NCBI GenBank assembly: GCA_001828855.1
Contig: MHZT01000047.1
Coordinates: 1-64,000 of the forward strand
Source of the DNA: Rhodobacterales bacterium RIFCSPHIGHO2_02_FULL_62_130
Lineage (GTDB): Bacteria > Pseudomonadota > Alphaproteobacteria > Rhodobacterales > Rhodobacteraceae
Direction of reading: 5' to 3'
DNA: 64,000 nucleotides
Shown: positions 23,128 through 55,922 of the stretch, piece by piece
Position numbering within the stretch: the stretch's first letter is position 1
How the letters are laid out: the number at the start of each line of letters is the position of its first letter
Made by a program: the position numbers and the translations under genes
Notes under the pieces: model-generated
The model's input: the letters and a program-made list of their open reading frames with translations, nothing else
Database searches by the model: none
Told to the model about the DNA's origin: nothing

Positions 23128-23418
23128 TTATCGCGGGAACCGGGTGCGAAAGCGGGTCAGGGCGGCCAGAATCTCGGCCAATGCCGCAAGGTCGGGGCTG
23201 GCAGGATTTGGGGTGAAAGGGGGATGGGCGGCAAGGGCGCGGGCCATCAGACTGCCGTTTCCCCAAGCCGGATGCGGTTTGGCGTGCCGTTTCATGTAAT
23301 GATGGGCGGCATGGGCCTGATGGATCAGACGCTCGGCCAGTGCGGGGCGACCCGGGGCTGCAACGGCGGCAAGGGCTGCCGCCGCCGTGGTGATATCGCC
23401 GATCAGACAGCGCCGCAT
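23128..23418 (-). CDS. Small conserved protein at the end of the GTA operon
   Basis: The 96-residue protein is Ala/His-rich with a central HHYMKRHAKPHPAWGNGSLM. I believe similar short proteins follow gp15 in other Rhodobacterales GTA clusters (possibly DUF7742, from memory), but I know no function. Its ATG lies five bases after the gp15 stop, so it is probably cotranscribed with the GTA genes. No signal peptide or membrane helix is seen. Confidence 0.7.
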   Translation of the reverse strand: MRRCLIGDITTAAAALAAVAAPGRPALAERLIHQAHAAHHYMKRHAKPHPAWGNGSLMARALAAHPPFTPNPASPDLAALAEILAALTRFRTRFPR

Positions 23419-23423
23419 CGGGG

Positions 23424-26400
23424 TTAAAGCGTCACATCGATGCTGCGGAAGGGTCCGGCACCGAATCGTTGCGACAGTTGCGCGACCGACAGGGTGATGG
23501 GGCCGCTGGCGGTATCAGCGCTTTGCTGGGCTGCGGAATAGATCCAACTGGCCGAGGTGGTGGTGGTTTCGCGCAGCAGGGTGGCACCTTGCAGCACGCG
23601 GACGATATAGGCCTCGGCATCTTCGCCCAGTGGCACCTCGACCGATTGCCAGCTGTCACCATCGATCCGCGTGCGGCGGGTCCAGTTCAGGTGCAGATCG
23701 GCGTCGGCCTGTGTGGCGCGCAGATGGGCGACGGGATAGGGGCGCAGGCCGATGCCATCGAAGGACTCGACCAGATGCACGCCTTCCGGCGCATCATAGC
23801 CGCGATTGGCCGCGCCGATGCGGTAGTTCCGCACCAGACCGCGCGCCGCGGCGGGCAGATCGATCTGGGCAAGGGCGGCGGTCAGCAGAACAACGGTGCT
23901 GCCGATTGGCCATTCGGGTGGCATGATGCCATCCGATCCGGCCTGCCCGCGCAAACGCAGACTGAGTTCATAGGTCTTGGGGGCGACCAAAGTGGCGGTG
24001 GCGAATTGAAACACCTCCCACCCCGCGGCCGAGCCGTCGCCTATGGCTGCGACATTGGCCCCTGCCAACACCTGAAACGTCGTTGCCGATGACAGCGCTC
24101 CAGTTTCGACACGCACACGCAATGCCGCCCCGCGATCCCATAGGCCGGCAGGGGCTTGGGACAACGGGGTTTCGGTGATGCCGATTACGGCGGGGGCGGA
24201 AACCACCTTGTTCAGCGCATAGGAGTCGTCAGTGGCCGAGGCCCAGAGCGCCACCGAACCCGGCCAAGGCTGGGCCACGGCAGCGATGAAGGGCGCGTGC
24301 GGCACTTCGGCTCCGGTCAGCAAGGGCAGGTCCAGAAACACCGGATGCACCGGCGTGGGCGGAACATGGGGCGGCCATGTGCGGGCGGTGGAATTTGTCT
24401 CGGTCGGGCGATAGGGGGCCGGATCGATCCGCACGGCCTCGACCAGTTGCACGCCGGACTGCTCGATCCGGTCGATGCGATAGCGCTGATCCTCCAGCAT
24501 CACAACATCGCCCGCCCCCAATCCCAGTTGCGACGGTGGCAGCGCAAAGCGGGCAACATCGCGCGCCACCCGCGCCTCGGCCATCCAGCGTTCGGCGATG
24601 GTGGTGGCCTCGGCCTCGGTCAGCACCAGTGGCAATTCGCTTTGCGACACCACATCCCCCGCCTCATCGGGGAAGATCGCCTGTACCGTGGCCACGCTAA
24701 AATCGCCTTCGGATTCCAGATAGGTCAGGCGGACCCGACCGGGGGTTTCGATATGCGACAGGCGCGAGGTTTCCAGCACGCCGTCAATTTCAGAGCTGCG
24801 GGCAAGGCTGTCCGGCGAAACGGTGGTTGCGGCAAGGCCCGTGCGTTTCTTGAAGGCGACAGCGCCTTCGCGTTCGATGACTTCGACACCATGGGCGAGC
24901 ATCAAGGGTTGCAGGATTGCGCGGGCCGTAGCGATGTCATGGACGCCATAGCCGCGCACCAATCCCAAAGGTTCGGCAAAACCGAAGGGCGACAGGTCTG
25001 CGGTCTGGCAAACCTCGGCCATGACCGCCGCCAGTTGCTGACCCGAAGTGCGCCCGTTCAGCCAGTGACCTTTGTCATAATTCGCCGCATCGCCCCAGTT
25101 CTGGGTATTGCGCGGGAAATCCGGAAACGGCCGCGCATCCCAGGCCCAAGCCAGACTTTTGCCAAAATCGACCATGGGGGCTGCGTAAACCGGAGAGACG
25201 GGATTATTGGCAGGATCGGCCCAGTGTTCCGCCATGGCCTGAAAATAGACCAGTTGGATAAGGTCATCGCGATGACCGTCGGAATAGTTCGGCAGACCGG
25301 ATTCCGAGGATTTGAAGTCGAGGAACTTGTTGGGCTGGTTGGTGGCCTTGTCCAGCGCGGCACATCCGTATTCGATAAAACGGATCGGTTTGGAGGCGGG
25401 AACCCACGCGGTTGGCAGGGCGTCGCGCGCACCTGCGATGCGGTTGTGGTGCTGGTTCTGCCACCATCCGCGCAGGTCTTTGTAGCGGTAGACCCAAGGC
25501 TCGTCATAGGCGCCGTCGGTGATGGGCTTGCGAAGCTGCGCCGCCGCACCTTCGGGGCCGTCATAATACCAGTCAAACCCTTCGCCGCCCGCAATATTGG
25601 CGCGCAGATAGTCCTTGTTATGGATCGCTCCCCATGCGGCATCGGCATGGGTTTCACCGTCGCGCCAGTCTGACAGCGGCATGTAATTGTCGATGCCGAT
25701 CAGATCGATGGCGGGGTCGGCCCACAGAGGATCGAGGTGGAAATAGACGTTGTCGCCGGTGTGATAACCGAAATACTCGGTCCAGTCGGCGGCATAGGTG
25801 ATCTTGGTGCCAGCGCCCAGAATGGCCCGCACATCGGCGGCCAGCGCCCGCAGCGCGGCCACAGCCGGAAAGCTGTCGGCGGCGGCACGAATTTGCGTCA
25901 GGCCACGCAGTTCAGACCCGATGCAGAACGTATCCACCCCGCCTGCTGCCGCGCAAAGCTTGGCATAATGCAGCACAAAGCGGCGATAGCCCCAATCGGC
26001 AGGGCCGTTATAGCTGACGTCGGTGCCGGAGGCGGTAAAGTGCGAGGGCAGTGCCGCGCCGAAAAAGGCTGCAACCTCGGCTTCGGCGGCGGCGCTGCGG
26101 TCGGTGCTGCCCGGTCGCCCCGGAGCCTTGGCAAGCGTGATGCGCCCGCGCCACGGCAGATGCGGCTGTGTTGCATCGGAATAGGGATCAGGCAGGGTAT
26201 TGCCTGCGATTTGATCCATCAGGATAAAGGGGTAAAACGTCACTTCCTGGCCACCCGCGCGGATCGCCTGAATCGCCTCGACCACCGACTGATCGGCGGG
26301 CGTGCCACCATAGATCGGTTTTCCCTGATCTTGCGGCACAGTCGTAGCCGCCGCGCGCGCCATGCCACTGACCTTCCACGGCATGCCAACGCCATCATAC

Positions 26401-27314
26401 TGGGTCTGCTCGACCTTCGGTTTGATCTGGCAACTGCCGCAGCGCAGATCGCCGCCGAACCATGACACCACCAGAGACAGCCCCGCCACCGCTGGCAATT
26501 CATCCCGCAACTGGTTCAATGACACCAACAGATCGGCCTTTCCCGCCGCCGTGTTTACATTGGCGCTGCGGTTCACACCGGGACCATAGCTGTAATGCAC
26601 CGAGGTTGTGGCCAGCGCATATTCTCCGGTTCCGGGGATCAGGGCGACACCCGGAACGGTTTTGGCAAGATCGGGGAAGGCTGCAGCGGCCTCGCCCTGC
26701 GCCGGACGGATGACCTCGAAACTGAACTGCGGCACACGGTTGCCATAAGCGGCCAGATCGAGATCTTCGATCACCACATAGGCAGTGCCGCGATAGGCAG
26801 GGGCCAGACCTGCGCCTTCGACCGCCTCGATCTTGGGGTCGGGCAGTTGCGTCTCGTCACCATGGTAGACCCGCATGTTCAGGGTATCAGGCGAAACCTC
26901 GTTGCCATCGGCCCAGACACGGCCGACATGGGTGATCCTGCCTTCACACAGACCTATTGCCAGACTGATGCTATAGCTGAACTGGTTGCTGGCACCCCGT
27001 GGCGCGCCCTTGCTGCCTCCGGCACGGGTGACCTGTTCCTGAAAGCGGGTGGCCCAGATCACCTGCCCCGAAACGCGCACCCGCCCCCACAGACGCGGCA
27101 GTGCGGCGCCTTCGCTGGCCCCCATCAGGCGAAACCGTTCAACCCGGCCAACATCCACCGCGTCCGAGCCGTTGCCCATCACCCGCTGATCGATGACGCG
27201 GCCAAGGGTGGCACCCAAAGCGCGCCCGATCACCGCACCCGACAGACCCAAAAGCGTGCCACCAAAGCCGGCACCAAGGGCCGCACCTGCTGCCGAGAGC
27301 AAAATCGTCGCCAT
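23424..27314 (-). CDS. GTA gp15, multidomain baseplate/host-specificity protein
   Basis: The 1296-residue protein is the large hub/baseplate component of RcGTA-type particles. A glycine/alanine-rich hydrophobic N-terminus (AAGAALGAGFGGTLLGLSG) is followed by a tail-protein region. A TIM-barrel-like glycosidase domain comes next, at about 430-760 (FCIGSELRGLT, ADWTEYFGYH, IDNYMPLSDWRD, EYGCAALDKATNQPNKF). The remainder is a phage-tail domain. It should contact and perhaps penetrate the recipient envelope. It is intact and is the last structural gene of the cluster, followed closely by the small gene at 23418. Confidence 0.92.
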   Translation of the reverse strand: MATILLSAAGAALGAGFGGTLLGLSGAVIGRALGATLGRVIDQRVMGNGSDAVDVGRVERFRLMGASEGAALPRLWGRVRVSGQVIWATRFQEQVTRAGGSKGAPRGASNQFSYSISLAIGLCEGRITHVGRVWADGNEVSPDTLNMRVYHGDETQLPDPKIEAVEGAGLAPAYRGTAYVVIEDLDLAAYGNRVPQFSFEVIRPAQGEAAAAFPDLAKTVPGVALIPGTGEYALATTSVHYSYGPGVNRSANVNTAAGKADLLVSLNQLRDELPAVAGLSLVVSWFGGDLRCGSCQIKPKVEQTQYDGVGMPWKVSGMARAAATTVPQDQGKPIYGGTPADQSVVEAIQAIRAGGQEVTFYPFILMDQIAGNTLPDPYSDATQPHLPWRGRITLAKAPGRPGSTDRSAAAEAEVAAFFGAALPSHFTASGTDVSYNGPADWGYRRFVLHYAKLCAAAGGVDTFCIGSELRGLTQIRAAADSFPAVAALRALAADVRAILGAGTKITYAADWTEYFGYHTGDNVYFHLDPLWADPAIDLIGIDNYMPLSDWRDGETHADAAWGAIHNKDYLRANIAGGEGFDWYYDGPEGAAAQLRKPITDGAYDEPWVYRYKDLRGWWQNQHHNRIAGARDALPTAWVPASKPIRFIEYGCAALDKATNQPNKFLDFKSSESGLPNYSDGHRDDLIQLVYFQAMAEHWADPANNPVSPVYAAPMVDFGKSLAWAWDARPFPDFPRNTQNWGDAANYDKGHWLNGRTSGQQLAAVMAEVCQTADLSPFGFAEPLGLVRGYGVHDIATARAILQPLMLAHGVEVIEREGAVAFKKRTGLAATTVSPDSLARSSEIDGVLETSRLSHIETPGRVRLTYLESEGDFSVATVQAIFPDEAGDVVSQSELPLVLTEAEATTIAERWMAEARVARDVARFALPPSQLGLGAGDVVMLEDQRYRIDRIEQSGVQLVEAVRIDPAPYRPTETNSTARTWPPHVPPTPVHPVFLDLPLLTGAEVPHAPFIAAVAQPWPGSVALWASATDDSYALNKVVSAPAVIGITETPLSQAPAGLWDRGAALRVRVETGALSSATTFQVLAGANVAAIGDGSAAGWEVFQFATATLVAPKTYELSLRLRGQAGSDGIMPPEWPIGSTVVLLTAALAQIDLPAAARGLVRNYRIGAANRGYDAPEGVHLVESFDGIGLRPYPVAHLRATQADADLHLNWTRRTRIDGDSWQSVEVPLGEDAEAYIVRVLQGATLLRETTTTSASWIYSAAQQSADTASGPITLSVAQLSQRFGAGPFRSIDVTL

Positions 27315-27317
27315 GGC

Positions 27318-27773
27318 CTAAGCTCCTTCAGAAATTGAAAATCGGGCAGGAAAAGAAAAACGCGCGACAATCTTGCGGCGCCACGGCGCAGCCAGCGCAC
27401 TTTCGATAACGCCGTGACCGGTGTAGGCATGGATGAAAGCAGGCGCGGCAAGCGACGACACGATGCCCAGATGCTTGGCCACGCAGCCCGAACGCATCCG
27501 AAAAAGCAGCACATCGCCAAGGGCTTCGTCGGCCATATCCTTGGCAATCAACCAGCGATCCGCCGCCCGCCATAGACCTTCATCGCCCGATGGTTCGGAC
27601 CAATCGGCGCTATAGGCGGGAACATCCTGCGGTTCCTGCCCCAAGACCTCGCGCCAGACCCCGCGCAACAGACCCAGACAATCGGTCCCTACCCCGCGCA
27701 AGCTGCCTTGATGCAGATAGGGTGTGCCAAGCCAGCCGCGCGCAGTTGCCACAATGGTCAAGGGCTGGTTCAT
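27318..27773 (-). CDS. GTA gp14, NlpC/P60 cell-wall peptidase
   Basis: A 151-residue NlpC/P60-fold peptidase of phage tails. Cys32 in GTDCLGLLRG and His101 in AKHLGIVS are the visible catalytic residues. In RcGTA the homologue is thought to help cross the recipient peptidoglycan. It overlaps gp13 by four bases (27770-27773) and lies three bases upstream of gp15. Confidence 0.92.
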   Translation of the reverse strand: MNQPLTIVATARGWLGTPYLHQGSLRGVGTDCLGLLRGVWREVLGQEPQDVPAYSADWSEPSGDEGLWRAADRWLIAKDMADEALGDVLLFRMRSGCVAKHLGIVSSLAAPAFIHAYTGHGVIESALAAPWRRKIVARFSFPARFSISEGA

Positions 27774-28669
27774 CCGTGTGCGCCCCCCGACAGGCTGCCA
27801 CCATCATTGGCGCGCGCGCTCACCGGATATGAGGCCAGCCAATCTTCGCCCGGAATATGGGGAAAGCCGCGAAAGTTGGCGAAATTGGCAAATTTGCTGC
27901 GGCAGGTTTCGGCACGGCGGTCACAGCCTGCCTCAAGCCGAAGCTGATCGCCAATGGCGATCTGGGTGCCAAAGCCCTGCCAAAGCTCGATCATGCGGTC
28001 ATGTCCGATGGCGCGATCGGCCTTGACCATCTGCACCAGACCCGCCGCGCGACCGCTCAGGACGGTCAGCCGGCCACGCTCGAACCAGTGATCGGCAAGC
28101 GCCATATCTGCGGCAATCCGCAGCCGCCCCATCGGATCAACCCCGACCAGCGCACCTTCACTCCGGTAGCCCGCCGTGCCAAGATCAAAGCCGCAGGCCC
28201 GATCGCCCAGCACCGCCGCGCAGCCCGCCTGATAGGCCCGCCCGCGCGGTTGGTTCAGCCGGTCGGTCAACCCGCGCAATTCGACGCGAAACGCCCCGCC
28301 CGCCCGTATCACCTCGCCGAAATTGCCGCGAAACTGCTCGATCCGCTGGTCAACATCGGCCCAGTTCACCAGCCAAGAGCGCACCTCGGCCGCATCAAAG
28401 CGGCCCGAGAACAGATCGTCCTCGGTCACCGATACATCCGACAGCGCCCCGATGGCTTCGGTATTGTCCACCGAAAGGCCGGTGGTTTGCTGCACCGCCT
28501 TTGCAGTCATGCCAGTGGCGGCGCGAAAGGCCTGGCCGTCAAATGCCAGATCCTGATCATGGTCGGTAAAGCCAAAGGCCATGCCATCCTTGCGCTGCAC
28601 CAGCCACGCACGGCAAACGGTGGTCGCGCCTGTGCCAAGATGGTCCAGCAAGTCTTGCCGCGCGGTCAT
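27770..28669 (-). CDS. GTA gp13, DUF2163 tail protein
   Basis: The 299-residue protein of the TIGR02218/DUF2163 family starts MTARQDLLDHLGTGATTVCR and contains WLVQRKDGMAFGFTDHDQDL. It carries C-terminal cysteines (CDRRAETCRSKFANFANF, resembling an iron-sulfur-type cluster motif seen in tail hub proteins). It is part of the distal tail/hub. It overlaps gp14 and gp12 by four bases each. Confidence 0.92.
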   Translation of the reverse strand: MTARQDLLDHLGTGATTVCRAWLVQRKDGMAFGFTDHDQDLAFDGQAFRAATGMTAKAVQQTTGLSVDNTEAIGALSDVSVTEDDLFSGRFDAAEVRSWLVNWADVDQRIEQFRGNFGEVIRAGGAFRVELRGLTDRLNQPRGRAYQAGCAAVLGDRACGFDLGTAGYRSEGALVGVDPMGRLRIAADMALADHWFERGRLTVLSGRAAGLVQMVKADRAIGHDRMIELWQGFGTQIAIGDQLRLEAGCDRRAETCRSKFANFANFRGFPHIPGEDWLASYPVSARANDGGSLSGGAHG

Positions 28670-29298
28670 AGACGCACCTCCACCACCGGCACATTCGGCA
28701 CCTCACCCGCCTTGAACGAGGCCATCGAGGTGTGAATCCGGTCGGTGTCAAAGCGCACCGGCACGTCAAATTCAAACCCCGCCGTGACGATCACGCCAAT
28801 GTCGGGCGGCGACACAAATGTGACGACGCCGGTATCGATATCGACGCCGAACTCCAGCCCATCGACCTTGGGATCATGGGCCAAGGCCACCAGCACCGTG
28901 CCTGCCACCGCTTTGGCAATCGGGCGCCGATAGCTTGCCTCGCCGGATTGATAGAGCTTGGACAGCTTGAAGGCACGACTCACGCCGTCGCCGACCCCGA
29001 TACGCTGATCCAGCGCCGAGACGGTTTGCGACGGCTTGCAGGACCGGAAATCCGCCCAATCCTTCCAGCGAAAAGCATGCAACTGTCCGCGCCGCGCCTC
29101 GAAAAACGCGATCAGCGCGTCGACATCATCAAGGCTCCGCAGCCCCATCCCCGCATCATAGCGGCGGCGCGAATGTTCCCACGGGGTGTTGCGCTCCTCA
29201 AAGCCGTTGGCCAGCGTGACCACCTCGGTCTGCCGTTCGGGTCCGCCAAGCGCGCCGAAAGACAGGTTGGTGGGAAATCTAATCTCGTGAAATGCCAT
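28666..29298 (-). CDS. GTA gp12, DUF2460 distal tail protein
   Basis: A 210-residue protein with the family opening MAFHEIRFPTNLSFGALGGP and the conserved RRRYDAGMGLRSLDDVDALI, AFRWKDWADF and FDTDRIHTSMASFKAGEVPN segments of DUF2460 (TIGR02217). The family forms the distal tail ring. It overlaps gp13 by four bases and follows gp11 by nine. Confidence 0.93.
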   Translation of the reverse strand: MAFHEIRFPTNLSFGALGGPERQTEVVTLANGFEERNTPWEHSRRRYDAGMGLRSLDDVDALIAFFEARRGQLHAFRWKDWADFRSCKPSQTVSALDQRIGVGDGVSRAFKLSKLYQSGEASYRRPIAKAVAGTVLVALAHDPKVDGLEFGVDIDTGVVTFVSPPDIGVIVTAGFEFDVPVRFDTDRIHTSMASFKAGEVPNVPVVEVRL

Positions 29299-29307
29299 CT
29301 GCCTGCC

Positions 29308-29961
29308 TCATTTATTGCGTTGACCGCGCGCCAACATGCGCGAGGCTTGCGCCGCGATCTGGCTTTGCGAGCGTTGAAAGCCTGCCACATCGGGGGTCTG
29401 GATGTTCATCACCACCGTCACGGGCCGCGCGCCGCCGCTGGCCTGCACGCCCAGACGGCCATCGGGACCGCGCGCCAGTGGCATGATCGCCTCTGGCCCC
29501 GCCTCGCCCATCAGGCCACGCCCGTTTCGCATGGCAAAGCCCGTGGGCTGGGCCACCACGCCGCCCTTGGCAAAGGGCATCACCCGTCCTTGGGCGAAAC
29601 TGCCGCCCTTTTCGAACGGCATGATCCCCGACAGAAGGCTGTTGATCCCCTCGGCCAGAAAGCCGCCGACCGCGTTGTGAACCGGCTTCATGGCGATGCC
29701 ATAAACCGTGTCGATCATGGTGGTGGCCACGCCCTTCAGCGCGTCCGACAGCTTCATGCCGTCAAACACCAGCCCGTCGAAGGCACGGCGCAACCCACCG
29801 CTGATGCCGTTCGACAACACCCCCACCTCGCGCCCCGTAAAGACAAGCGAGTCCTTCATCTTGACCAACTCGCCATCAAACGCCGCGACCATCGAGGCGG
29901 TGCCGCCCAATGTCGCCTCCAAAGCGGCGATCTGGTCTTGCAGTTCTTCAATCTCGGCCAT
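29308..29961 (-). CDS. GTA gp11, short tape-measure protein
   Basis: The 217-residue protein has an N-terminal coiled coil (EIEELQDQIAALEATLG), a central amphipathic/hydrophobic part, and glycine-rich MPFEKGGSFAQGRVMPFAKG and LMGEAGPEAIMPLARGPDGR, which mark the C-terminus of many tape-measure proteins. It is short, matching the short GTA tail. It overlaps gp10.1 by 14 bases. Confidence 0.9.
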   Translation of the reverse strand: MAEIEELQDQIAALEATLGGTASMVAAFDGELVKMKDSLVFTGREVGVLSNGISGGLRRAFDGLVFDGMKLSDALKGVATTMIDTVYGIAMKPVHNAVGGFLAEGINSLLSGIMPFEKGGSFAQGRVMPFAKGGVVAQPTGFAMRNGRGLMGEAGPEAIMPLARGPDGRLGVQASGGARPVTVVMNIQTPDVAGFQRSQSQIAAQASRMLARGQRNK

Positions 29962-30157
29962 CTGCGCCGCCTTTCTTGTGATCGGGAAATGCTGCGGCCA
30001 GATCCTCCAGCCGCGCGCGGGTCAGGGGCGGGGATGCGCCCTCAAGGCCCAGCAGGATCTGCAATTCCACCGGCGTCAGCCGCCAGAACGCCGCCGGGGA
30101 AAGCTGCAACTGGCCAAGCCCTGCCCGCAACAGGCCCGGCCAGTCGATCCGCTTCAT
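29948..30157 (-). CDS. GTA small tail-assembly chaperone-like protein (gp10.1)
   Basis: The 69-residue protein of the TIGR02216 type has the sequence IDWPGLLRAGLGQLQLSPAA followed by FWRLTPVELQILLG. Its position between gp10 and the tape-measure gene matches the tail-chaperone slot of phages. Overlaps gp10 by four bases and gp11 by 14. Confidence 0.88.
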   Translation of the reverse strand: MKRIDWPGLLRAGLGQLQLSPAAFWRLTPVELQILLGLEGASPPLTRARLEDLAAAFPDHKKGGADGRD

Positions 30158-30477
30158 CCGTGCTCCGGCAGGGAAAACGCGCGTGCCAGCAGTTCGGCTG
30201 CCGCGCGTGCAGCCCCAATCGGCCCGCCCCCCACCTCAACCGTGCGCAGATCGACCGCCGTGCCCTGCCAGCCGCCCCCGCGCAACCCCGCCACCAGCAG
30301 CGCCAGCACGTCGCGGGTTGAAAACCGCTGCGCCTCGAACCGTTCGACCAGATCAATCAGCGATCCGGTCTCCAGCGCCACCTCCAGCTCGGCCAGCGCG
30401 CCAAGGGTCAGCTTGGCCACATGGCGCTGGCCATCCAGCCAGACCGCCACTTCGCCCGCATAGGGGTTCGCCATCAC
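30154..30477 (-). CDS. GTA gp10, tail-chaperone-like GTA family protein
   Basis: A 107-residue protein starting MANPYAGEVAVWLDGQRHVA with KLTLGALAELEVALETGSL. These match the phage tail-assembly chaperone family found in GTAs (PF11836, recalled). It probably works with gp10.1 on tail assembly. ATGA overlaps join it to gp9 and gp10.1. Confidence 0.88.
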   Translation of the reverse strand: MMANPYAGEVAVWLDGQRHVAKLTLGALAELEVALETGSLIDLVERFEAQRFSTRDVLALLVAGLRGGGWQGTAVDLRTVEVGGGPIGAARAAAELLARAFSLPEHG

Positions 30478-30890
30478 AGCGCCGTAAATGTCAGCGCACC
30501 CGCCGAGGCCAGCGACATCTCATAGGTCGCCTCGCCGTTATGGCTGCCCGCATATTCGATCGCGGTGATCTGGAACGCCCCCTGCACCACGCCAAAGCTG
30601 GGGATAATCACCTGAAAATCCGGCATTTCGGCGTCGAAAAAGATCTGCCGCGCGCGCTCGTCGGTGTTGGCATCGCGGAACACGCCGGACCCCGAAATCG
30701 AGGCGGTCTTGACCCCTGCCCCCGCCAGCAACTCGCGCCAGCCCCCCGCGCTTTCCAGCGAGGTCACATCGACCGTCTCGGCGTTGAAACTGATCCGCGT
30801 GGCGCGCAGGCCCGCCACCGTCACAAACTGCCCGTCGCCCACCAGATCAACCTTGATCAGCAGGTCTTTGCCATTCTGCACAGCCATCAT
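30474..30890 (-). CDS. GTA gp9, major tail (tube) protein
   Basis: The 138-residue protein of the TP901-1 major tail family has the segments AVQNGKDLLIKVDL, DVTSLESAGGWRELLAGAGV and EMPDFQVIIPSFGVVQGAFQ. It forms the tail tube. Tandem ATGs at 30890 and 30887 follow CGGAGACGG. Stop overlaps the gp10 start. Confidence 0.92.
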   Translation of the reverse strand: MMAVQNGKDLLIKVDLVGDGQFVTVAGLRATRISFNAETVDVTSLESAGGWRELLAGAGVKTASISGSGVFRDANTDERARQIFFDAEMPDFQVIIPSFGVVQGAFQITAIEYAGSHNGEATYEMSLASAGALTFTAL

Positions 30891-30908
30891 CCGTCTCCGT
30901 TTGAAAGG

Positions 30909-31307
30909 TTAAAGCTCGATCCGCGCGCGGAAGCCCATATCGATCCGCCGCACGTCACCCTGATCGATCCGCCGCGCCACGGCCCGTTGGAATTGCAGCG
31001 ACACCAGCGTGCCGGTGGTCAGCGTCAGCGAAGCCCCCGCCAGCGCATCCGACACCGAAGCCGCGATGGTCTTGGCCGACAGGAATCCCGTGGCATCCGA
31101 AATCACCGAGACGTCAAAGCGATGCTCCGCCCCCGCGCCTGATTTGTCAGACTGGTCAGTGACCACCTCGGGGCCGATCAGCACAAAGCTGCCAAGACTG
31201 GTCCCCGCCGGAATCGCATCGACAATGCTAACTCCTGCCAAAGCGGGAAAGCCCGTCAACCGATGGTAAACCGCCGCCTGCAAGGCGGCTGCTGCGCCGT
31301 AGCTCAT
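30909..31307 (-). CDS. GTA gp8, DUF3168 tail terminator-like protein
   Basis: A 132-residue protein of the DUF3168 family (SYGAAAALQAAVYHRLTG, HRFDVSVISDATGFLSAK, RIDMGFRARIEL). Homologues act at the head-tail junction/tail terminator. It overlaps gp7 by four bases; gp9 follows 18 bases later. Confidence 0.9.
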   Translation of the reverse strand: MSYGAAAALQAAVYHRLTGFPALAGVSIVDAIPAGTSLGSFVLIGPEVVTDQSDKSGAGAEHRFDVSVISDATGFLSAKTIAASVSDALAGASLTLTTGTLVSLQFQRAVARRIDQGDVRRIDMGFRARIEL

Positions 31308-31642
31308 GCCGGAACCTCCTCGCGCACGAAACAGGTCAGGAACTGGCCGCGTGGATCGGCCTCGGTCACCGCCAGAATGGTGAAGATGCGCGCACCCTCA
31401 CAGAAGCGTTGTGCCGGTTTGGGGCGCGAGATGGCTCCGACCGCCGCACCCCGCACGGTTATGCGATGCTGAACGGTCGAGGTGCTGATTTCCTCCCCCG
31501 CCGTCTCCCGCCCCGTGCCGGATTTCACTTCGGCCCACAGGGTGCCAAGCGCGACCCAGACCACTGAAAACCCGCCTGCCCCATCGGCCACGCGGTTGGC
31601 CTGCTCCAGCACCAGCGCGCGGTTGAGATCGGGCGCGTTCAT
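31304..31642 (-). CDS. GTA gp7, head closure protein
   Basis: A 112-residue SPP1-gp16-type head-closure adaptor (LNRALVLEQANRVADGAGGF, LWAEVKSGTGRE, SQHRITVRGAA-like core). I use the ATG at 31642 (MNAPDLNRAL), which overlaps the gp6 stop as ATGA. The frame extends 12 codons further into gp6 but the overlap pattern of the operon favours 31642. Confidence 0.88.
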   Translation of the reverse strand: MNAPDLNRALVLEQANRVADGAGGFSVVWVALGTLWAEVKSGTGRETAGEEISTSTVQHRITVRGAAVGAISRPKPAQRFCEGARIFTILAVTEADPRGQFLTCFVREEVPA

Positions 31643-32241
31643 GCTGCACCTCCGCCCAGAACCCGCACCGTGCGCCATTTCTCGATCAGCGCCTGCACCG
31701 TCACCGGCAGGCCAAAGCTGCGCTGGCCCGCGTCCAGCCGACGTTCATAGAACTCGGCCGCCAGCAGCAGCACCGCCTGCGCCAGATCGGGCGGCACCGC
31801 CGACCACACCGCACCGAAACCGGCGTCAAAGACGATCTCCACCCGACCATCGGACGGAACGGCGGGCAACAGCATCCCCACCGCCGCCAGCTTGGGCCGC
31901 TGCGTGTCCGGCACCAACCGATAACGCGCAGGGACCACCACCGTCGGCACCCCCAGCGCATCCAGCAGCGTCACCGACACCAGCGCCGACACAGGGGCCA
32001 CCGGCAGCGCCTGCTCAGACGGGCCACGCCAATCCTGCAAGGTCAGCAAAAACTGCCGCGCCAGCAGCACCTTGCCGATCCGCGCCTCGATCGCAGCCAT
32101 CGCCGCGCGCAGATAGCTTTCCACCAGCGCATCCTGCATTCCGTCATCCGCAAACCCGCTGCCAAGCCGCAGATGGTCCTTCAGCGCCTGCAGCGGCAGC
32201 GCGGCCCCTGAAACCGTGGTCTGTTCCGTCAACATCATCAT
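31639..32241 (-). CDS. GTA gp6, head-tail connector protein
   Basis: A 200-residue connector of the phiE125 gp8/HK97 gp6 type (TIGR02215): LKDHLRLGSGFADDGMQD, ARIGKVLLARQFLLTLQDWR, and RVEIVFDAGFGAVWSAVPPD. Three tandem ATGs (32241, 32238, 32235) follow TTTGGAG, so the exact start is open by two codons. Confidence 0.9.
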   Translation of the reverse strand: MMMLTEQTTVSGAALPLQALKDHLRLGSGFADDGMQDALVESYLRAAMAAIEARIGKVLLARQFLLTLQDWRGPSEQALPVAPVSALVSVTLLDALGVPTVVVPARYRLVPDTQRPKLAAVGMLLPAVPSDGRVEIVFDAGFGAVWSAVPPDLAQAVLLLAAEFYERRLDAGQRSFGLPVTVQALIEKWRTVRVLGGGAA

Positions 32242-32374
32242 GTCACTCCAAACCCCCGCTTGGACGTTGAACGCGCGCCCCGTGCCGCTTGAACGGAGGG
32301 GAGCAGCTGGACGGCACGGAAAACCCGGCGCGCGTTCACGGTCCGGCCTGATCGGGCCGGACGATCACAAGGGC

Positions 32375-33574
32375 TTAGGACACCGCGATTTTCAGCAGCT
32401 TGATCGCGGCAAAGTCGGTCACATCACCGCCCACGCGTTTCGACGCATAGAACAGCACGTTGGGTTTGGCCGAGAACGGGTCGCGCAGGATGCGCAGATC
32501 GGGGCGTTCCGCGATGGTGTAGGCCGATTTGAAATCGCCAAAGGCCACCGCATAGGCATTGGCGGCGATGTCGGGCATGTCCTCGCAGATCAGCACCGGA
32601 TAGCCCATCAGCCGCGCCGGTTCCGCTGCGGCCAGCCCGTCCGACCACATGAAGCGGCCATCGGCATCCTTCATTTTCCGCACCGCTCCCGCAGTTTTCG
32701 AGTTCATGATGAAACTCGCATTGGCGCGATAATCCGCCCCCAGCGCATAGATCAGGCTGATGATGCAATCGACCGAATTGGTCGGCGCGAAATCCGCCGC
32801 AGCCCCCGTCGGCACATAGCCGATCTCACCCCAACCCCACGCGGCATTGGCGACTTTCGGCGGCAGCAGGATGCCCTTGGGCTTGTCCACACCATCGCCG
32901 TTGATAAAGGCCGAAGCCTCGGCGCGGATGAATCGGGTGGCGATCTTGGAGGAAAGCCAGCCTTCCACGTCAAAGGCGCTGTCATCCAGCAGCCGCTGGC
33001 TGGCCTTCGGCATAGCCGACAATTCATGCAGCTTGATCGAGATGCGCTCCACGGTGGGGGTTGCGGTCTCGGACTGCGCAGCAACTTCCGTGGCCCAGCC
33101 CGACCCCACCTCGGACCGGTCGATCAGCACATCGAACGAGGTCGCTTCCACCTGCACCACATTGGCAATCGCCCGCAAGCTGGAGGTCGAGACCAGCATC
33201 GAGCGGATGGTGTCCGCCGTCTGCGGGTCAACCAGATAGCCGCCATCAGCGGCCACGGCGGTGGACATGGCCTTGCCTTCCAGCACAAGCCCGCGCAACC
33301 CGTCATCATCCCCCGACCGCAGATAGGCACCAAAGGCCTTCTTGTGCGGCACATCCAACTCGGCCTGGGCCGAAAGGGCCGGGCGGGAGTAGGTCATCTG
33401 TTTGCGATCCAGCATGGTCAAACGCTCTTCCTGTTGTTGCAGCGATTTCTTCACTTCGTCCTGAAAGCCACTGAAGGCATTCATAAATCCGGTCATCGCG
33501 GATTTCACTTCCGCACCCGGATGCAGGGCCGTATCAGGCAATGCGCCATCGGCCCGAGCCTTAGTCTCGGTCAT
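32375..33574 (-). CDS. GTA gp5, HK97-fold major capsid protein
   Basis: The 399-residue capsid precursor has an N-terminal coiled-coil delta domain (FQDEVKKSLQQQEERLTMLD, about 30-55). The mature HK97 fold begins near GLVLEGKAMSTAVAADGGYL and continues with QRLLDDSAFDVEGWLSSKIA, MGYPVLICEDMPD and YTIAERPDLRILRDPFS. The delta domain is probably removed by gp4. A 133-bp gap separates it from gp6, one of the few gaps in the operon. Confidence 0.94.
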   Translation of the reverse strand: MTETKARADGALPDTALHPGAEVKSAMTGFMNAFSGFQDEVKKSLQQQEERLTMLDRKQMTYSRPALSAQAELDVPHKKAFGAYLRSGDDDGLRGLVLEGKAMSTAVAADGGYLVDPQTADTIRSMLVSTSSLRAIANVVQVEATSFDVLIDRSEVGSGWATEVAAQSETATPTVERISIKLHELSAMPKASQRLLDDSAFDVEGWLSSKIATRFIRAEASAFINGDGVDKPKGILLPPKVANAAWGWGEIGYVPTGAAADFAPTNSVDCIISLIYALGADYRANASFIMNSKTAGAVRKMKDADGRFMWSDGLAAAEPARLMGYPVLICEDMPDIAANAYAVAFGDFKSAYTIAERPDLRILRDPFSAKPNVLFYASKRVGGDVTDFAAIKLLKIAVS

Positions 33575-33609
33575 CTTGATTTCCTTCGGTTTGGTCGTGA
33601 AAGGCCGCG

Positions 33610-34173
33610 CTACCTGCGTTCGGCCATCGAACGGCGCGCGTCGTCAAAGACCTGCGCCATGCTGCGCCAGAAGTCGGCGTCTGGCGCATCGCCCTTGGCC
33701 GAAACCCGCGCTTCGGGAAGCATCGGGAAGGTGACAAGCGACACCTCCCAAAGCTCCAGTTCCGACAAAAGTCGCTGGCCCTTGCCGTCACGTTCTGACC
33801 TGACGGTGCGATAGCCGATCGACAGCCCGTCAATCGCCCCCGCCGTCAGCAGGGCCGCAGCCTCGCGGCCTTTTTCCACTTCGGTCAGGATACGGCCCTT
33901 GACCCAAAGGCCGGTGGCATCCTCGCGCACCTCGTCCCAGACGCCGATGGGCTGGGCCGGATCATGCTGCCACAGCATTTTCACGGCGCGCCCAGCCCCT
34001 GCCAACCGCTTCAAACTGGCGGCATAGGCGCCCTTTTGCACCACATCGCCACCCTGATCGCGTTTGCCGAACAGGCTGGCATAGCCCGCCACCACGCGCC
34101 CCTCGGTCAGCACCAACCCCGCTTCGGGCTGTTGGTATTTCCGTTCCGGCGCGCCCTGCATCAATCCGTTCAT
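33610..34173 (-). CDS. GTA gp4, HK97 prohead protease
   Basis: A 187-residue prohead protease with VVAGYASLFGKRDQGGDVVQ, catalytic His70 in MLWQHDPAQPIG and Ser118 in AIDGLSIGYRT. It should cleave the gp5 delta domain during head maturation. Lies three bases after the 82-residue gene and 35 before gp5. Confidence 0.93.
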   Translation of the reverse strand: MNGLMQGAPERKYQQPEAGLVLTEGRVVAGYASLFGKRDQGGDVVQKGAYAASLKRLAGAGRAVKMLWQHDPAQPIGVWDEVREDATGLWVKGRILTEVEKGREAAALLTAGAIDGLSIGYRTVRSERDGKGQRLLSELELWEVSLVTFPMLPEARVSAKGDAPDADFWRSMAQVFDDARRSMAERR

Positions 34174-34176
34174 CGC

Positions 34177-34425
34177 TTACCTCACTGCCGCCTGCATCAA
34201 AGCCTCGGCCATCTGCGCCAGCAGAAAGGCCGCAACCCCGTAAACGCCCACCCAGATCCGCCGCTCCAGCCGCTCCAGCACGGCGTCAATCTGGCCAAGC
34301 CGGTAATCCAGCGCCGCCCAACGCTCTAGGGCCACTCGCTCATTCGCCTCGATCCGCGCTGCCGCGGCATCAAAACTGTCGTAAAGAAAGCGCGAGCCTT
34401 CGGACGGTTTGCGCGGCGGGGTCAT
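34177..34425 (-). CDS. GTA head-formation small membrane-like protein (rcc01685 type)
   Basis: An 82-residue protein: a charged N-terminus, a predicted coiled coil (AAAARIEANERVALERWAAL) and a C-terminal hydrophobic helix (IWVGVYGVAAFLLAQMAEAL). It matches the small gene between portal and protease in RcGTA (gp3.5/rcc01685), annotated as head formation protein. It overlaps the portal stop by four bases. Confidence 0.88.
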   Translation of the reverse strand: MTPPRKPSEGSRFLYDSFDAAAARIEANERVALERWAALDYRLGQIDAVLERLERRIWVGVYGVAAFLLAQMAEALMQAAVR

Positions 34426-35600
34426 TCATCCTCCGCCAGTCGCGGCAGGCCCAGAAGCATCCGCTTTTCGGCAGGCGTCAGGAATTCCGCCGCCCCAACC
34501 CGCGCCCATTGCTGGTCACGTTCAACCGCCAGCGCGGGTATCTGGTCCAGATCGGGGCGCAATTCCACCACCTCGCCAGTAAAGCCCGACAGCCAATGCG
34601 AAATCCCCGCCGTCACCCGCGCCACCAAGGGCAGCACGGTCAGCCGGTAAAACGCGCGGTTGGCCTCTTGGTAATTGGCATAGGTCGCGTCGCCCGTGAT
34701 CCCCATCAGCATCGGCGGCACACCAAAAGCGATGGCAATCTCGCGCCCCGCCGCCTCTTTGGTCTTCTGGAATTCCATATCCGAGGGGCTGAACCCCATC
34801 GGTTTCCAGTCCAGCCCCCCCTCCAGCAGCATCGGACGGCCTGCATTGCGCGCGCCCTGATGATGCGTCTCCATTTCCGACACCAGCCGGTCATATTGAT
34901 CGGAGGAAAGCTGCGCTTGCCCGTCCGAGCCTTTGTAGACAATCGCCCCCGAAGGCCGCGCGGCATTGTCCAGAAGCGCCTTCGACCAGGCAGACGCGCT
35001 GGTATGCACGTCAATCGCCACCGCCGCCGCCTGCAAAGGCGAAAATCCGTAATGGTCATCCGCCGGATGGAAGGTCTTGATATGGCAGATCGGCTGGGCC
35101 TCGGCCGTCATCGCAAAGCGGTGCGTCCGCCCGCCCACCGAGTAATCATACCCCACCGGCCAGCCATCCGCGCCCGGCACCAAAGACATCCGGTCGGACC
35201 GCAGCACGTGCAATTCCCCCGGCAGTTTGTCCAGTCCCGGCACCGCCTCGACATAGGCATTGCCCGACAGCAGCAGATGGCCGTAAAGCGCCTCGAACAG
35301 CTCGGCCCGCCCCTGCGCGCCGTTCGGGCGACGGATCAAGTCCAGCACGGGATGCTGGTCATAGCGGCGCTCGTGGTCTTGCAGGATCAAGGGTAAGGCG
35401 GCGGCGGCCTCGGAAATCAGCTTGACCGCGCGAAAGCCCATCGGATTGCCCTGAAAGCCGGTTTTCGACAGCGACACCGCATCGCGCGGGCTCCACGCCA
35501 CGCGGCCAGAGCTGCCCCACGCCACCACGCGCCCCGTGGCCGAGGCCTTCTTTTCGGGGATATCCACCACCGGCGTGCGTTTCAGGAAATCGAAAACCAT
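34422..35600 (-). CDS. GTA gp3, HK97-type portal protein
   Basis: The 392-residue portal has WSPRDAVSLSKTGFQGNPMG, ALYGHLLLSGNAYVEAVPG, WSKALLDNAARPSGAIVYKG and GVPPMLMGITGDATYANYQE. It forms the head vertex ring through which DNA enters. I chose the ATG at 35600 (MVFDFLKR) preceded by GGAG. The frame is open 36 codons upstream without similarity. 138 bp separate it from the terminase. Confidence 0.93.
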   Translation of the reverse strand: MVFDFLKRTPVVDIPEKKASATGRVVAWGSSGRVAWSPRDAVSLSKTGFQGNPMGFRAVKLISEAAAALPLILQDHERRYDQHPVLDLIRRPNGAQGRAELFEALYGHLLLSGNAYVEAVPGLDKLPGELHVLRSDRMSLVPGADGWPVGYDYSVGGRTHRFAMTAEAQPICHIKTFHPADDHYGFSPLQAAAVAIDVHTSASAWSKALLDNAARPSGAIVYKGSDGQAQLSSDQYDRLVSEMETHHQGARNAGRPMLLEGGLDWKPMGFSPSDMEFQKTKEAAGREIAIAFGVPPMLMGITGDATYANYQEANRAFYRLTVLPLVARVTAGISHWLSGFTGEVVELRPDLDQIPALAVERDQQWARVGAAEFLTPAEKRMLLGLPRLAEDE

Positions 35601-35738
35601 CTCGGAAAGCTCCTTGTTCGTCCGCTGCCCCGTGCCATCCCCCGTTACGGGTTTCTGCGCGTCTGGAAGCCTTTCTAGGGAAGAAACCTTTAAGAAGCGC
35701 TGGACCACCGCGCGCCGATCACTGCTGCGCGCAACGGG

Positions 35739-37082
35739 CTAGAGCGTGCGAACCTGCGGCGCGCGCCAGCTTTCGGAAGGTTCCACAATCAGATCGGTCA
35801 GCGCCCAGACCAGCGCATCCACGCGGTCGGGGCTGCCCTTGCCCAGATAGCCCTGCGCCGTCATCTGGCACATCTGCTGTTCCAGCGCGCCAAGATGCCG
35901 CAGATGCGCTACCCGCCCCTGTTCATAAAGCGCCGCCACAGGTTCCGCGCGCACCGCCTTGGCCCGTGTCGCCCGCACCGCGCGGAACGGCACCAAGGGA
36001 TCAATCTGCCGGATCACGCCTTCCACCAGATCGCCGCCCTGATTGACCTCTGCCACCAGCCGGTCGGCCTTGTGCCGCTCCATCGCGGCAATCGCGGCCT
36101 TAGCCCATTGCTGCGGCGAAGCCCCCGTCACACTTGCATCCTCCAGCACCACCGCGCGCCAGTTCTGGGGTGGCCCGTCGGTGATCGCCCCCACCACCAC
36201 GATGCCACATTCATCCGATTTGCCATGCCCCGTGACAGGCGGGTCCACCGCCACCACGATGCGCCTGCAAACCGGTGCCGCCTCCAGCCGCCCCGCCTCA
36301 AGCTGCGCCGTGGTCCAGAGCGCGCCTTGCACATCTTCAACCAGCAGCCCCTCCAACTCCTGCATCCCCTGCCGCGTTCCGGCATAGCGCGCCTTCACCT
36401 CCTCAAGGAATGAGGCCGCAAGATAGGCGCGGTTGGCATCCGTGGGCGCGTGGGTCATCACGGTCGAGGGGTTTTTCAGGATCGTCTTCAGCACCCCCAC
36501 ATTCTGCGGCGTGGTCGTCACCACCTGACGCGGGTTTTCCCCAAGACGCAGCGCGAATTGCAGCATGTCCCACGTCTCTTCGGCTTTCGGCCACTTGGCC
36601 AATTCATCCACCCAAGCCGCGTCAAACTGCGGCCCGCGCAAAGACGCCGGATCATGTGCCGAAAACACCTGCGCAATCGCGCCATTGGGCCAGATCAGCC
36701 GCTTGCGCGTGGCCTCCCAAGCGGGGCGGCGATCGGGCGGAGAGCAGGCCAAAATCCCGCTGTCGCCAAAGATCATCACCTCGCGCACCTGCTCAATCGT
36801 CTCGCCCACCAAGGCCACGCGCCGCGACCGCCCCGCATCGACCGGCCCCGCGCCTTCCACCTCGGCGCGTACCCATTCCGAACCGGCGCGGGTTTTCCCC
36901 GCCCCGCGCCCGCCCATGATCACCCATGTTTTCCACGCGCCTTCGGGCGGCAGTTGATGCGCCAGCGCCCAGAATTCAAACATCCATGGCAGCGCCGCCA
37001 GCGCGTTTTCCGACAGCCCGCCCAGAAATTCGTCAACCGCCGTTTGCGTCGCGCAGGCGAGCCAGTCTGCGCCCGATCTCAT
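35739..37082 (-). CDS. GTA gp2, terminase large subunit
   Basis: A packaging ATPase/nuclease. With the start at 37082 (MRSGADWLAC) it has 447 residues, with Walker A GGRGAGKT at 57-64, Walker B FDAAWVDEL, the coupling motif TTPQN and a nuclease domain with VVAVDPPVTG and RLVAEVNQGGD. No clear ribosome site precedes 37082, and the frame is open to 37166 with overlap into gp1, so the start is uncertain. In GTAs it packages about headful fragments of host DNA without sequence specificity. Confidence 0.92.
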   Translation of the reverse strand: MRSGADWLACATQTAVDEFLGGLSENALAALPWMFEFWALAHQLPPEGAWKTWVIMGGRGAGKTRAGSEWVRAEVEGAGPVDAGRSRRVALVGETIEQVREVMIFGDSGILACSPPDRRPAWEATRKRLIWPNGAIAQVFSAHDPASLRGPQFDAAWVDELAKWPKAEETWDMLQFALRLGENPRQVVTTTPQNVGVLKTILKNPSTVMTHAPTDANRAYLAASFLEEVKARYAGTRQGMQELEGLLVEDVQGALWTTAQLEAGRLEAAPVCRRIVVAVDPPVTGHGKSDECGIVVVGAITDGPPQNWRAVVLEDASVTGASPQQWAKAAIAAMERHKADRLVAEVNQGGDLVEGVIRQIDPLVPFRAVRATRAKAVRAEPVAALYEQGRVAHLRHLGALEQQMCQMTAQGYLGKGSPDRVDALVWALTDLIVEPSESWRAPQVRTL

Positions 37083-37356
37083 CGCGCGCGGCGTGTAGGT
37101 CAAGCTGGCCGGTTCCGACAGTCCCGGCAACCTGTTTGCGGAGTTTATCAAGTTTCGCCCTTTCATCCATGACCAGAAAGAATGCCGCCTTCAGGTCGCG
37201 CACCGAAGCCTGTGCCGACCTGACCTCTTCGAACCGCCCCGCCTTGATCGCATTGACCGCAAGGACCAGTTCTTCGGCTGTCTGGGTATAAAGTTGATGT
37301 GTTTCCGCCAGAAGATCGACTGGCGGACTGTCTCCGATAGAGAACGTAATCGTCAT
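37033..37356 (-). CDS. GTA gp1, small terminase
   Basis: The 107-residue helical protein (MTITFSIGDS..., AETHQLYTQTAEELVLAVNA, VMDERAKLDKLRKQVAGTV) occupies the first position of the cluster. In R. capsulatus gp1 has been shown to be the small terminase. The ATG at 37356 is chosen; a GTG at 37371 is also possible, and neither has a strong ribosome site. It overlaps the 5' part of the large terminase gene by about 50 bases. Confidence 0.85.
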   Translation of the reverse strand: MTITFSIGDSPPVDLLAETHQLYTQTAEELVLAVNAIKAGRFEEVRSAQASVRDLKAAFFLVMDERAKLDKLRKQVAGTVGTGQLDLHAARDEIGRRLARLRDANGG

Positions 37357-37535: not shown

Positions 37536-38714
37536 TTACTCGCTTTGCACGCCGGTCGCTGCGTCTTGGCCCCGTTGCGCCTCGATCTCGCGCCACTTCG
37601 CGACGTTCTCGTTGTGCTGGGCCAAAGTCTCGGCAAAGGCATGGCCGCCCGATCCGTCGGCCACGAAATAGAGATAGGCCGTGGTGTCGGGGTTCAGCGC
37701 GGCCTCGATGCTAAGACGCCCCGGATTGGCGATGGGTGTCGGCGGCAACCCGTCGATCACATAGGTGTTCCACGGCGTTTCGCGCTTCAACTCGCTTTGG
37801 CGCAGGCCACGGCCCAGAATGCCCTCGCCCTTGGTCAGCCCGTAAATCACCGTGGGGTCAGTTTGCAGCCGCATGCTGTTCCGCAAACGGTTGATGAACA
37901 CACTGGCCACCTGCTTGCGCTCTTCGGGGATGCCGGTTTCCTTTTCGACAATCGAGGCCATGATCAGCGCTTCTTCGGGCGTCTCATAGGGCAGACCCTC
38001 ATCCCGACCGGCCCAAAGCTCGGCCAGAACCGCGGTCTGCCGCGCTGTCATCTCGGTCAGCAAGGCCCCGCGATCACTGCCTTTTTCGACCTCATAACTG
38101 TCCGGTGACAGCGTGCCTTCGGGCGGCACCGTTTCAAGCGCCCCGTCAAGGAAATCGGCGCGCTTCAAGGCATCCACCACCATCCAGCTTGTCACACCTT
38201 CCGCCAAAGTCACCCGCCAGCGCATATCGGGCGCTTGGGCAACATCGACATAGGCCGCAGGCGCAGCCTCGGTCGCCGGATCGAACTTGACCACCTCGAC
38301 ATAGCGGTTCGTCGCCGGATCAAGCTCGCGCAGGATCACATCCGCCCCCGCGATGCCGATGCGGAAATTCACCTCGCGCCCGCAGGTCGATTGCCCGCCC
38401 GCCGTGACCACGGCCAGAACCTCCCCCATCGAGGCTTTGGGGGGCAACAGATAGCTGCCGAACTTCAATCCGGTGCCTTTGTCGGAATAATCCGCGCCAA
38501 TGCGGAAAATCCGTGCGTCCGAAACCGCGCCCTGCTCCTCAAGCGCACGGCTGACATGACTCAGGCTTGCACCCTTTTCCACCCGAAAGCAGATCGCCTC
38601 GGCCAGTGGCCCCGGTCCGGTATAAACCTGTCGCCCCCAGGCCAGCAGGCCCGACACAACCACCAAAACCACGATGAACAGCGTCAGCGCGTTCGAGGCG
38701 ACAGCTTTCCACAT
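37536..38714 (-). CDS. mltG: Endolytic murein transglycosylase MltG
   Basis: A 392-residue inner-membrane protein with one N-terminal helix (NALTLFIVVLVVVSGLLAWG) and a periplasmic YceG-like domain. It carries the catalytic IMASIVEKETGIPEERKQVA and VFINRLRNSMRLQTDPTVIY, and a C-terminal GLPPTPIANPG. It cleaves nascent glycan strands and sets their length. Its ATG shares one base with the fabF stop, so the two are coupled. Confidence 0.94.
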   Translation of the reverse strand: MWKAVASNALTLFIVVLVVVSGLLAWGRQVYTGPGPLAEAICFRVEKGASLSHVSRALEEQGAVSDARIFRIGADYSDKGTGLKFGSYLLPPKASMGEVLAVVTAGGQSTCGREVNFRIGIAGADVILRELDPATNRYVEVVKFDPATEAAPAAYVDVAQAPDMRWRVTLAEGVTSWMVVDALKRADFLDGALETVPPEGTLSPDSYEVEKGSDRGALLTEMTARQTAVLAELWAGRDEGLPYETPEEALIMASIVEKETGIPEERKQVASVFINRLRNSMRLQTDPTVIYGLTKGEGILGRGLRQSELKRETPWNTYVIDGLPPTPIANPGRLSIEAALNPDTTAYLYFVADGSGGHAFAETLAQHNENVAKWREIEAQRGQDAATGVQSE

Positions 38715-39976: not shown

Positions 39977-40125
39977 GCGCGCACTCCTCAGACGTTCTGC
40001 ACTGCTTTTCCGCGTGATACACGCCCAAGCCCGCCCGCGCAACAACCGCCCACGGCTGCGGTGATGCAATGCCGATGCGTCCACACACGATTTTCTCTTG
40101 ACGAAATGCCGCAGAGGCCCAAGTA

Positions 40126-40147
40126 GTGAATGAACATTCATTCTCAC
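40126..40147. promoter_or_regulatory. Probable TetR operator upstream of the RND operon
   Basis: AATGAA-CA-TTCATT lies within the wider imperfect inverted repeat GTGAATGAACATTCATTC...TCAC. TGAATG/CATTCA palindromes are typical TetR-family operators. It overlaps the first in-frame GTG at 40126, which favours the later start for the regulator. Confidence 0.55.
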
Positions 40148-40155
40148 GGCCATCC

Positions 40156-41970: not shown

Positions 41971-41982
41971 AGGGCATAGCAG

Positions 41983-55589: not shown

Positions 55590-55611
55590 TTCCTCGTCCT
55601 TCTCATCCATC

Positions 55612-55696
55612 TGGTGCGGGTGGAGGGACTTGAACCCCCACGCCTTGCGGCGCCAGAACCTAAATCTGGTGCGTCTGCCAATTTCGCCACACCCGC
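55612..55696 (-). tRNA. tRNA-Leu (anticodon TAG)
   Basis: Minus strand from 55696: GCGGGTGTGGCGAAATTGGC (acceptor and D arm), anticodon stem CCAGA-TTTAGGT-TCTGG giving anticodon TAG, a variable arm with GCGCC...GGCGT, the T arm GGGGGTTCAAGTCCCTC, and an acceptor 3' strand CACCCGC followed by ACCA. The 3' CCA is encoded. The long variable arm fits a class II leucine tRNA. Confidence 0.95.
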
Positions 55697-55922
55697 ATAT
55701 ATCGAAGCAAAACCCCACCGCCCGCCCGAAGGCCGGTGGCAGCGCCTTGCAAATCCGCGCCCTTCTAACAAAGCCCGCCACAGGATGCGAGAGGAAAAAG
55801 CGTGCAGTCCAAGCATGGGCAAGGATTCAGGCCGGAACGTCGAAAAGTCTAGGCAGTCACGGAATCTTGCCTTAGGTGTAAGTCAAAACGAGCAGATAAC
55901 AAAAAACGAACAGGAATTCCCG

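Follow-up and report, generated by a model that had tools for sequence, protein, structure and literature searches.

Do the first 64,000 nucleotides of contig MHZT01000047.1 of Rhodobacterales bacterium RIFCSPHIGHO2_02_FULL_62_130 (GenBank assembly GCA_001828855.1) hold an intact gene transfer agent (GTA), a virus-like particle that carries random host DNA from cell to cell, or a prophage in decay? A preliminary description of positions 23128-37356 of this stretch, hereafter the window, had claimed a complete set of the head-tail genes of RcGTA, the GTA of Rhodobacter capsulatus, kept under selection. We conclude with high confidence that the window carries the head-tail cluster of an RcGTA-type GTA, which sits on the chromosome of a Rhodobacteraceae genome and is inherited vertically. 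This cluster looks intact and preserved by selection, and it is ordinary for its family of bacteria.

The RcGTA head-tail cluster is defined as 17 genes in the accessible text of PMC6821227. We observed all 17 (g1-g15 with g3.5 and g10.1) on the minus strand, running from 37356 (the ATG of g1) to 23424 (the end of g15) in the order g1, g2, g3, g3.5, g4-g10, g10.1, g11-g15 and followed by a DUF7742 gene (g16) and cysE. Each of the 17 is uninterrupted from start to stop, with no frameshift or internal stop. Gene set, order and open frames are as the preliminary description had them; of its outer limits, 37356 is indeed the start of g1, whereas 23128 is the end of g16 and not of g15. The genes of the cluster are as follows.

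37033..37356, minus strand: g1, GTA-type small terminase, 107 amino acids (aa); 53% identical to R. capsulatus over 107 aa
35739..37166, minus strand: g2, large terminase; Terminase_6N and Terminase_6C (Pfam)
34422..35600, minus strand: g3, portal; Phage_portal (E = 1.4e-85, searched with the longer frame)
34177..34425, minus strand: g3.5; synteny and 38% identity to R. capsulatus
33610..34173, minus strand: g4, prohead protease; Peptidase_S78, with H70 and S118 invariant
32375..33574, minus strand: g5, major capsid protein; Phage_capsid (E = 1.4e-89), 72% identical to R. capsulatus
31639..32241, minus strand: g6, head-tail adaptor; Phage_connect_1, phrog_442
31304..31642, minus strand: g7, stopper; PDB 6tba 'Stopper protein Rcc01689' (E = 1.1e-35)
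30909..31307, minus strand: g8, tail terminator; Tail_completion_gp17, phrog_176
30474..30890, minus strand: g9, tail tube; Phage_tail_2 (E = 8.3e-50)
30154..30477, minus strand: g10, GTA-gp10 (Phage_TAC_11); PF11836
29948..30157, minus strand: g10.1, tail assembly chaperone; PF09550
29308..29961, minus strand: g11, short tape measure, 217 aa; tape-measure PHROGs, 61% identical to R. capsulatus
28666..29298, minus strand: g12, DUF2460, which we take to be the distal tail protein; PF09343 (E = 1.6e-84)
27770..28669, minus strand: g13, baseplate hub; PF09931, PF09356
27318..27773, minus strand: g14, NlpC/P60 cell-wall peptidase; PF00877, barely over the cut-off, with C32, H101 and H115 invariant
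23424..27314, minus strand: g15, 'megatron' baseplate protein; GTA_TIM, Phage-tail_3, Rcc01698_C

For fifteen of the 17 proteins, searches of Pfam, PHROG or PDB gave a match at E <= 1e-3, and the matches assign these products to the head, the connector, the tail or DNA packaging; g15 aligns over 1290 aa with the RcGTA baseplate protein of PDB 6tba/6teh. The exceptions are g1 and g3.5. Searches of Pfam, PHROG, PDB and NCBIfam returned no match for g1, which sits in place ahead of g2 and has 8 residues that are invariant in 56 sequences (the window and the 55 complete loci described below). Its place and length agree with the small terminase described in the accessible part of PMC6854486, and it has no Pfam helix-turn-helix (HTH) match. 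For g3.5, searches of Pfam and PHROG returned no match. We rejected chance open frames as a source of the cluster, both from these family matches and by simulation: a second-order Markov model of that strand, run 100 times, gave a longest stop-free stretch of 607 codons (mean 312), as against 1296 for g15.

Taking the start of g3 as the ATG at 35600 (the open frame extends on to a GTG at 35708) and that of g7 as 31642, where the PDB match of g7 begins, we found 4-base start/stop overlaps at 7 of the 16 junctions, six of them ATGA and one GTGA (g9/g10). The ATGA overlaps previously described for the cluster are therefore real, and four-base overlaps of either kind occupy under half of the junctions. 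At the other nine, g1 and g2 overlap by 134 bases and g10.1 and g11 by 14, and seven gaps measure 3-138 bases.

In RcGTA the same 17 genes stand in the same order, with mltG likewise upstream and g16 and cysE likewise downstream, and in our comparison genome, R. capsulatus DSM 1710 (L091), all 17 were matched between mltG and cysE. Scanning genome contigs with g5, we kept the best 80 of 558 loci, in which g5 identity to the window was 68-90% and the nearest named relatives by this measure were Cypionkella and Pseudorhodobacter. All 17 genes were present at >= 80% coverage on one strand in 55 of the 80, and their order was identical in every one of the 55; the remaining 25, many of them short contigs and not each inspected, were dropped as at least one gene was missing or less than 80% covered. 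The Cypionkella and Pseudorhodobacter clusters (L023, L025, L026 and L044, the last from Cypionkella psychrotolerans) carry all 17 genes at 58-93% identity and g16 at 50-57%, with mltG, fabF and cysE in place, and sequence divergence was the sole difference that we noticed. Such clusters have been described, in the accessible text of PMC6821227 and PMC9836097, as widespread in Alphaproteobacteria and, in Rhodobacterales, as well conserved and under purifying selection. Judging from a literature search that combined 'gene transfer agent' with Cypionkella or Pseudorhodobacter, the GTAs of this group seem unstudied.

The preliminary description had pointed to gafA, holin/endolysin and tail-fibre genes as ones to be sought elsewhere, and we found homologues of each in the same genome, which make up the same satellite loci as in R. 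capsulatus. The gafA homologue, on contig C46, encodes a DUF6456 protein with an N-terminal HTH (HTH_38) that is 64% identical to R. capsulatus GafA over residues 29-390. It lies between guaA and lipA, with other reading frames in between; the lipA protein scores above the TIGR00510 cut-off and is 86% identical to that of R. capsulatus. Such lipA/guaA synteny is also the published gafA neighbourhood in the accessible part of PMC6363796. Next to gafA, a divergent DUF6477 gene shares 60% identity over 91 aa with the neighbour of gafA in R. capsulatus, which from its place is presumably rcc01866. Contig C34 carries a separate lysis locus with an endolysin (GH108; NF040573 above cut-off; 64% identical to R. 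capsulatus) and a holin (GTA_holin_3TM; 60%), in both genomes two genes downstream of argC (TIGR01850) with one gene between. Among 14 control genomes, the holin family was found in none and DUF6456 and DUF2793 in one each, in both cases Caulobacter vibrioides, a GTA producer according to the accessible text of PMC9632790.

Two proteins with DUF2793, the domain of the RcGTA tail fibre, are encoded in the genome. One, of 679 aa, lies on contig C3, and the other, of about 594 aa, lies close to an end of contig C36. The N-terminal 210 aa of the C3 fibre are 54% identical to the one DUF2793 protein that R. capsulatus DSM 1710 encodes, and its residues 364-452 align a second time to R. capsulatus residues 121-210; the C-terminal parts show no meaningful alignment. 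We took the R. capsulatus gene to be Rcc00171, since that genome has no other DUF2793 gene and the product has 371 aa, the length given for this tail fibre in the accessible part of PMC7296036. The C36 protein aligns to it in two short stretches (47% over 93 aa and 39% over 75 aa). On C36 (L149 8524-14239, genome G000) the fibre-like gene is followed by an amidase gene and two frames with much lower GC content at third codon positions, near the contig end, which are perhaps a mobile insertion.

The protease, peptidase and terminase had been described as retaining intact catalytic residues, and this agrees with our alignments. In g2, the Walker A motif GGRGAGKT (residues 85-92), D187/E188 and the acidic residues D308/E373/D447/D450 are invariant in the 56 sequences, as are the g4 and g14 residues listed above; we take these residues to be catalytic in all three proteins, a putative role. 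At sites that are invariant in all the other sequences, the window shows at most 4 changes, which at rank 35 of 56 is no excess.

To measure constraint, we calculated pairwise ratios of nonsynonymous to synonymous substitution rates (dN/dS) against seven relatives hand-picked among the most similar of the 80 loci, giving 117 gene-pair comparisons. These relatives are not strictly the closest by g5 (L022, L028-L030 and L085 were left out), and gene pairs below 80% coverage, such as g15 in L024 and L032, were omitted. The median per genome over 16-17 genes was 0.195-0.242, g16 gave 0.29-0.42, and between the relatives L023, L044 and L025 the ratios for g1-g15 were lower still (0.02-0.21). The cluster is therefore under clear purifying selection, weaker than that on its housekeeping neighbours. 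The preliminary description had staked its reading on the presence of regulator and lysis genes and on dN/dS not being near one, and both held. Its interpretation is supported, and its word 'functional' is best read as a prediction from the sequence.

Several observations weigh against this reading. As loci were retrieved through g5, any that lack a capsid gene cannot appear among the 80. The dS values, at 0.46-1.71, are partly saturated, and pairwise dN/dS spans long branches, such that a very recent loss of expression would stay hidden. The weakest constraint of the cluster is on g1, the only gene among g1-g15 with dN/dS above 0.4 (0.34-0.63; its overlap with g2 depresses its dS), and the cluster as a whole is less constrained than flanking fabF, mltG and cysE (0.06-0.21). 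The head-spike genes ghsA and ghsB, which the preliminary description had also suggested seeking, were not found: the GhsA family NF048002, which matches R. capsulatus DSM 1710 and 2 of the 10 congeners searched, had 0 matches in this genome, and RcapMu58, chosen as the GhsB query because it is close to Rcc01080, had 0 matches here and, as it also missed R. capsulatus DSM 1710, provides only a weak negative. This query gave one weak match (30%), in G004, and a peptide pattern from the GhsB N-terminus found nothing here nor in R. capsulatus DSM 1710 and is hence uninformative. We had also considered RcapNL_0008 as the GhsA homologue and rejected it for want of an RcGTA match in PDB; the correct homologue proved to be RcapNL_00029.

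The cluster has also been damaged in close relatives, which likewise counts against it. A capsid gene >= 85% identical to g5 was present in 12 of the 15 genomes of the genus that we searched, this one included (in one it is split over two contigs), and no such gene was found in G001, an assembly that is 75% complete. In G003 (99% complete; L159 12690-13807) what remains is g1, residues 1-248 of g2 and a piece of g16, and the rest of g2 through g15 is gone; this arrangement was seen on two contigs, which may be assembly redundancy. In G011 (89% complete; L161 14762-19000) the g3 portal and g9 tail-tube genes are fused in frame and g3.5-g8 are missing, as seen on a single contig of an assembly that is less complete. 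In the two congeners the deletions may be assembly artefacts, and both keep gafA and holin homologues, the holin-family match of G003 with one in-frame TAG. Parts of the cluster are missing from at least one of the 14 congeners, and probably from two. As the cluster can be lost within the genus, its intactness here is more informative. The chromosome record of QY30 (L081, 9327-17250), in which the cluster is eroded by many deletions, with a full-length capsid gene and mere fragments of many others, is a natural decayed control with real deletions.

Could the cluster therefore have recently become non-functional in this strain, either unexpressed or unable to transfer DNA for want of accessory parts? 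The undetected head-spike genes, the deletions in G003 and probably G011, the in-frame TAG in the holin-family match of G003 and the heavily deleted QY30 cluster would all fit such a history. We regard it as improbable, given 17 genes without stop or frameshift, invariant putative catalytic residues with no excess of changes at invariant sites, and regulator, lysis and tail-fibre genes present; moreover, spike-less particles are reported in the accessible text of PMC10218006 to transfer genes, at low frequency, and head spikes, as accessory parts, are reported to aid transfer without being obligatory. A resident prophage, or a prophage remnant (Caudoviricetes) related to RcGTA-like phages, would account for the 14 of 17 proteins that match PHROG families (all save g1, g3.5 and g10.1) and for the fact that the R. 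capsulatus phages RcKai and RcKvothe carry a g15-type GTA TIM-barrel protein 42% identical to g15. These phages differ from the cluster in that their records are about 41 kb and their identity is lower, and no phage record reached 60% identity (0 of 545 for g5, 0 of 144 for g15), in contrast to the cellular g5 relatives. Moreover, the interval from mltG to cysE has room for the head-tail genes and g16 only, and we found no integrase, replication, repressor or lysogeny genes in it (attachment sites were not searched); the GC content of the 17 genes (0.59-0.70) compares with 0.62-0.63 for fabF, mltG and cysE, and the locus is the same in R. capsulatus and in the ordered loci above. As integration, replication and repressor genes are lacking and identity to phages is low, we rejected the prophage reading, which we consider very unlikely, and the earlier view of the cluster as selected and not a decaying prophage stands.

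By analogy with RcGTA, we can propose how the cluster would work: it would be expected to be transcribed, to yield particles that package random DNA, and to transfer genes. GafA, probably under CtrA and quorum sensing, would switch the operon on in a few cells. The terminase, whose small subunit would lack a sequence-specific DNA-binding domain, would pack random host DNA, in fragments of about 4 kb, into small heads, and the endolysin/holin pair from its separate locus would lyse the cell. Delivery of the DNA would then fall to the tail fibres and the g15 baseplate, and g14 would cut the cell wall.

The particle may differ from RcGTA of R. capsulatus, as we detected neither a head-spike base nor a head-spike fibre gene here. 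A speculative and rather doubtful extension is that it is an RcGTA without spikes, in which the choice of recipient has passed from capsule-binding head spikes to exchangeable fibres, namely two long DUF2793 tail fibres of modular build (679 and about 594 aa versus 371 aa). If this were so, GTAs that are intact, spike-bearing, spike-less and partly deleted would form a natural series within the genus, which could test what keeps the cluster alive. In R. capsulatus, TspA, the tailspike, is Rcc02623 in the accessible text of PMC13420450. The locus itself adds one more well-preserved RcGTA-type cluster, and its use is comparative: as close relatives range from intact to partly deleted and spike genes vary, a single genus could serve to measure the selection acting on the particle and on its components.

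The cluster is bounded by the following genes.

23128..23418, minus strand: g16 (DUF7742), rcc01699 homologue by place; PF24891
22245..23054, minus strand: cysE, serine acetyltransferase, downstream boundary; SATase_N
37536..38714, minus strand: mltG/yceG, upstream boundary; YceG, MltG TIGR00247 above cut-off
38714-40153: fabF, upstream of mltG; TIGR03150 above cut-off

Over 93 aa, the g16 protein shares 47% identity with the open reading frame at the equivalent place in R. capsulatus, downstream of which cysE likewise lies in DSM 1710, and the fabF/mltG order is identical there. The accessible text of PMC9552610 names the cysE at this place cysE1, reports g16 as cotranscribed with RcGTA and cysE1 as required for optimal receipt of DNA, and gives a 59-bp overlap of g16 and cysE in R. 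capsulatus, whereas 73 bases separate them here.

Upstream, the distance from mltG to g1 is less than 200 bases in the window and about 3.7-3.9 kb in L159 (8784-12690) and L161 (11023-14762), where the added stretch includes a protein of roughly 290 aa with PAAR-like repeats and an HELVH motif, which we take to be possibly a secreted effector. This genome also holds two more distant capsid homologues (G000:C34:90339-91316 and G000:C47:121852-122733; 32% and 29% identical), which are probably prophages, one of them on the window's own contig. Beyond fabF, the plus strand of the window encodes an HlyD-type membrane-fusion protein and an AcrB-type RND pump (40789-45324). Further on, a tRNA-Leu gene (55612-55696, minus strand) falls inside a long open frame (54339-56408, plus strand) whose sole Pfam match is a C-terminal Hint_2 and whose true start is probably further downstream.

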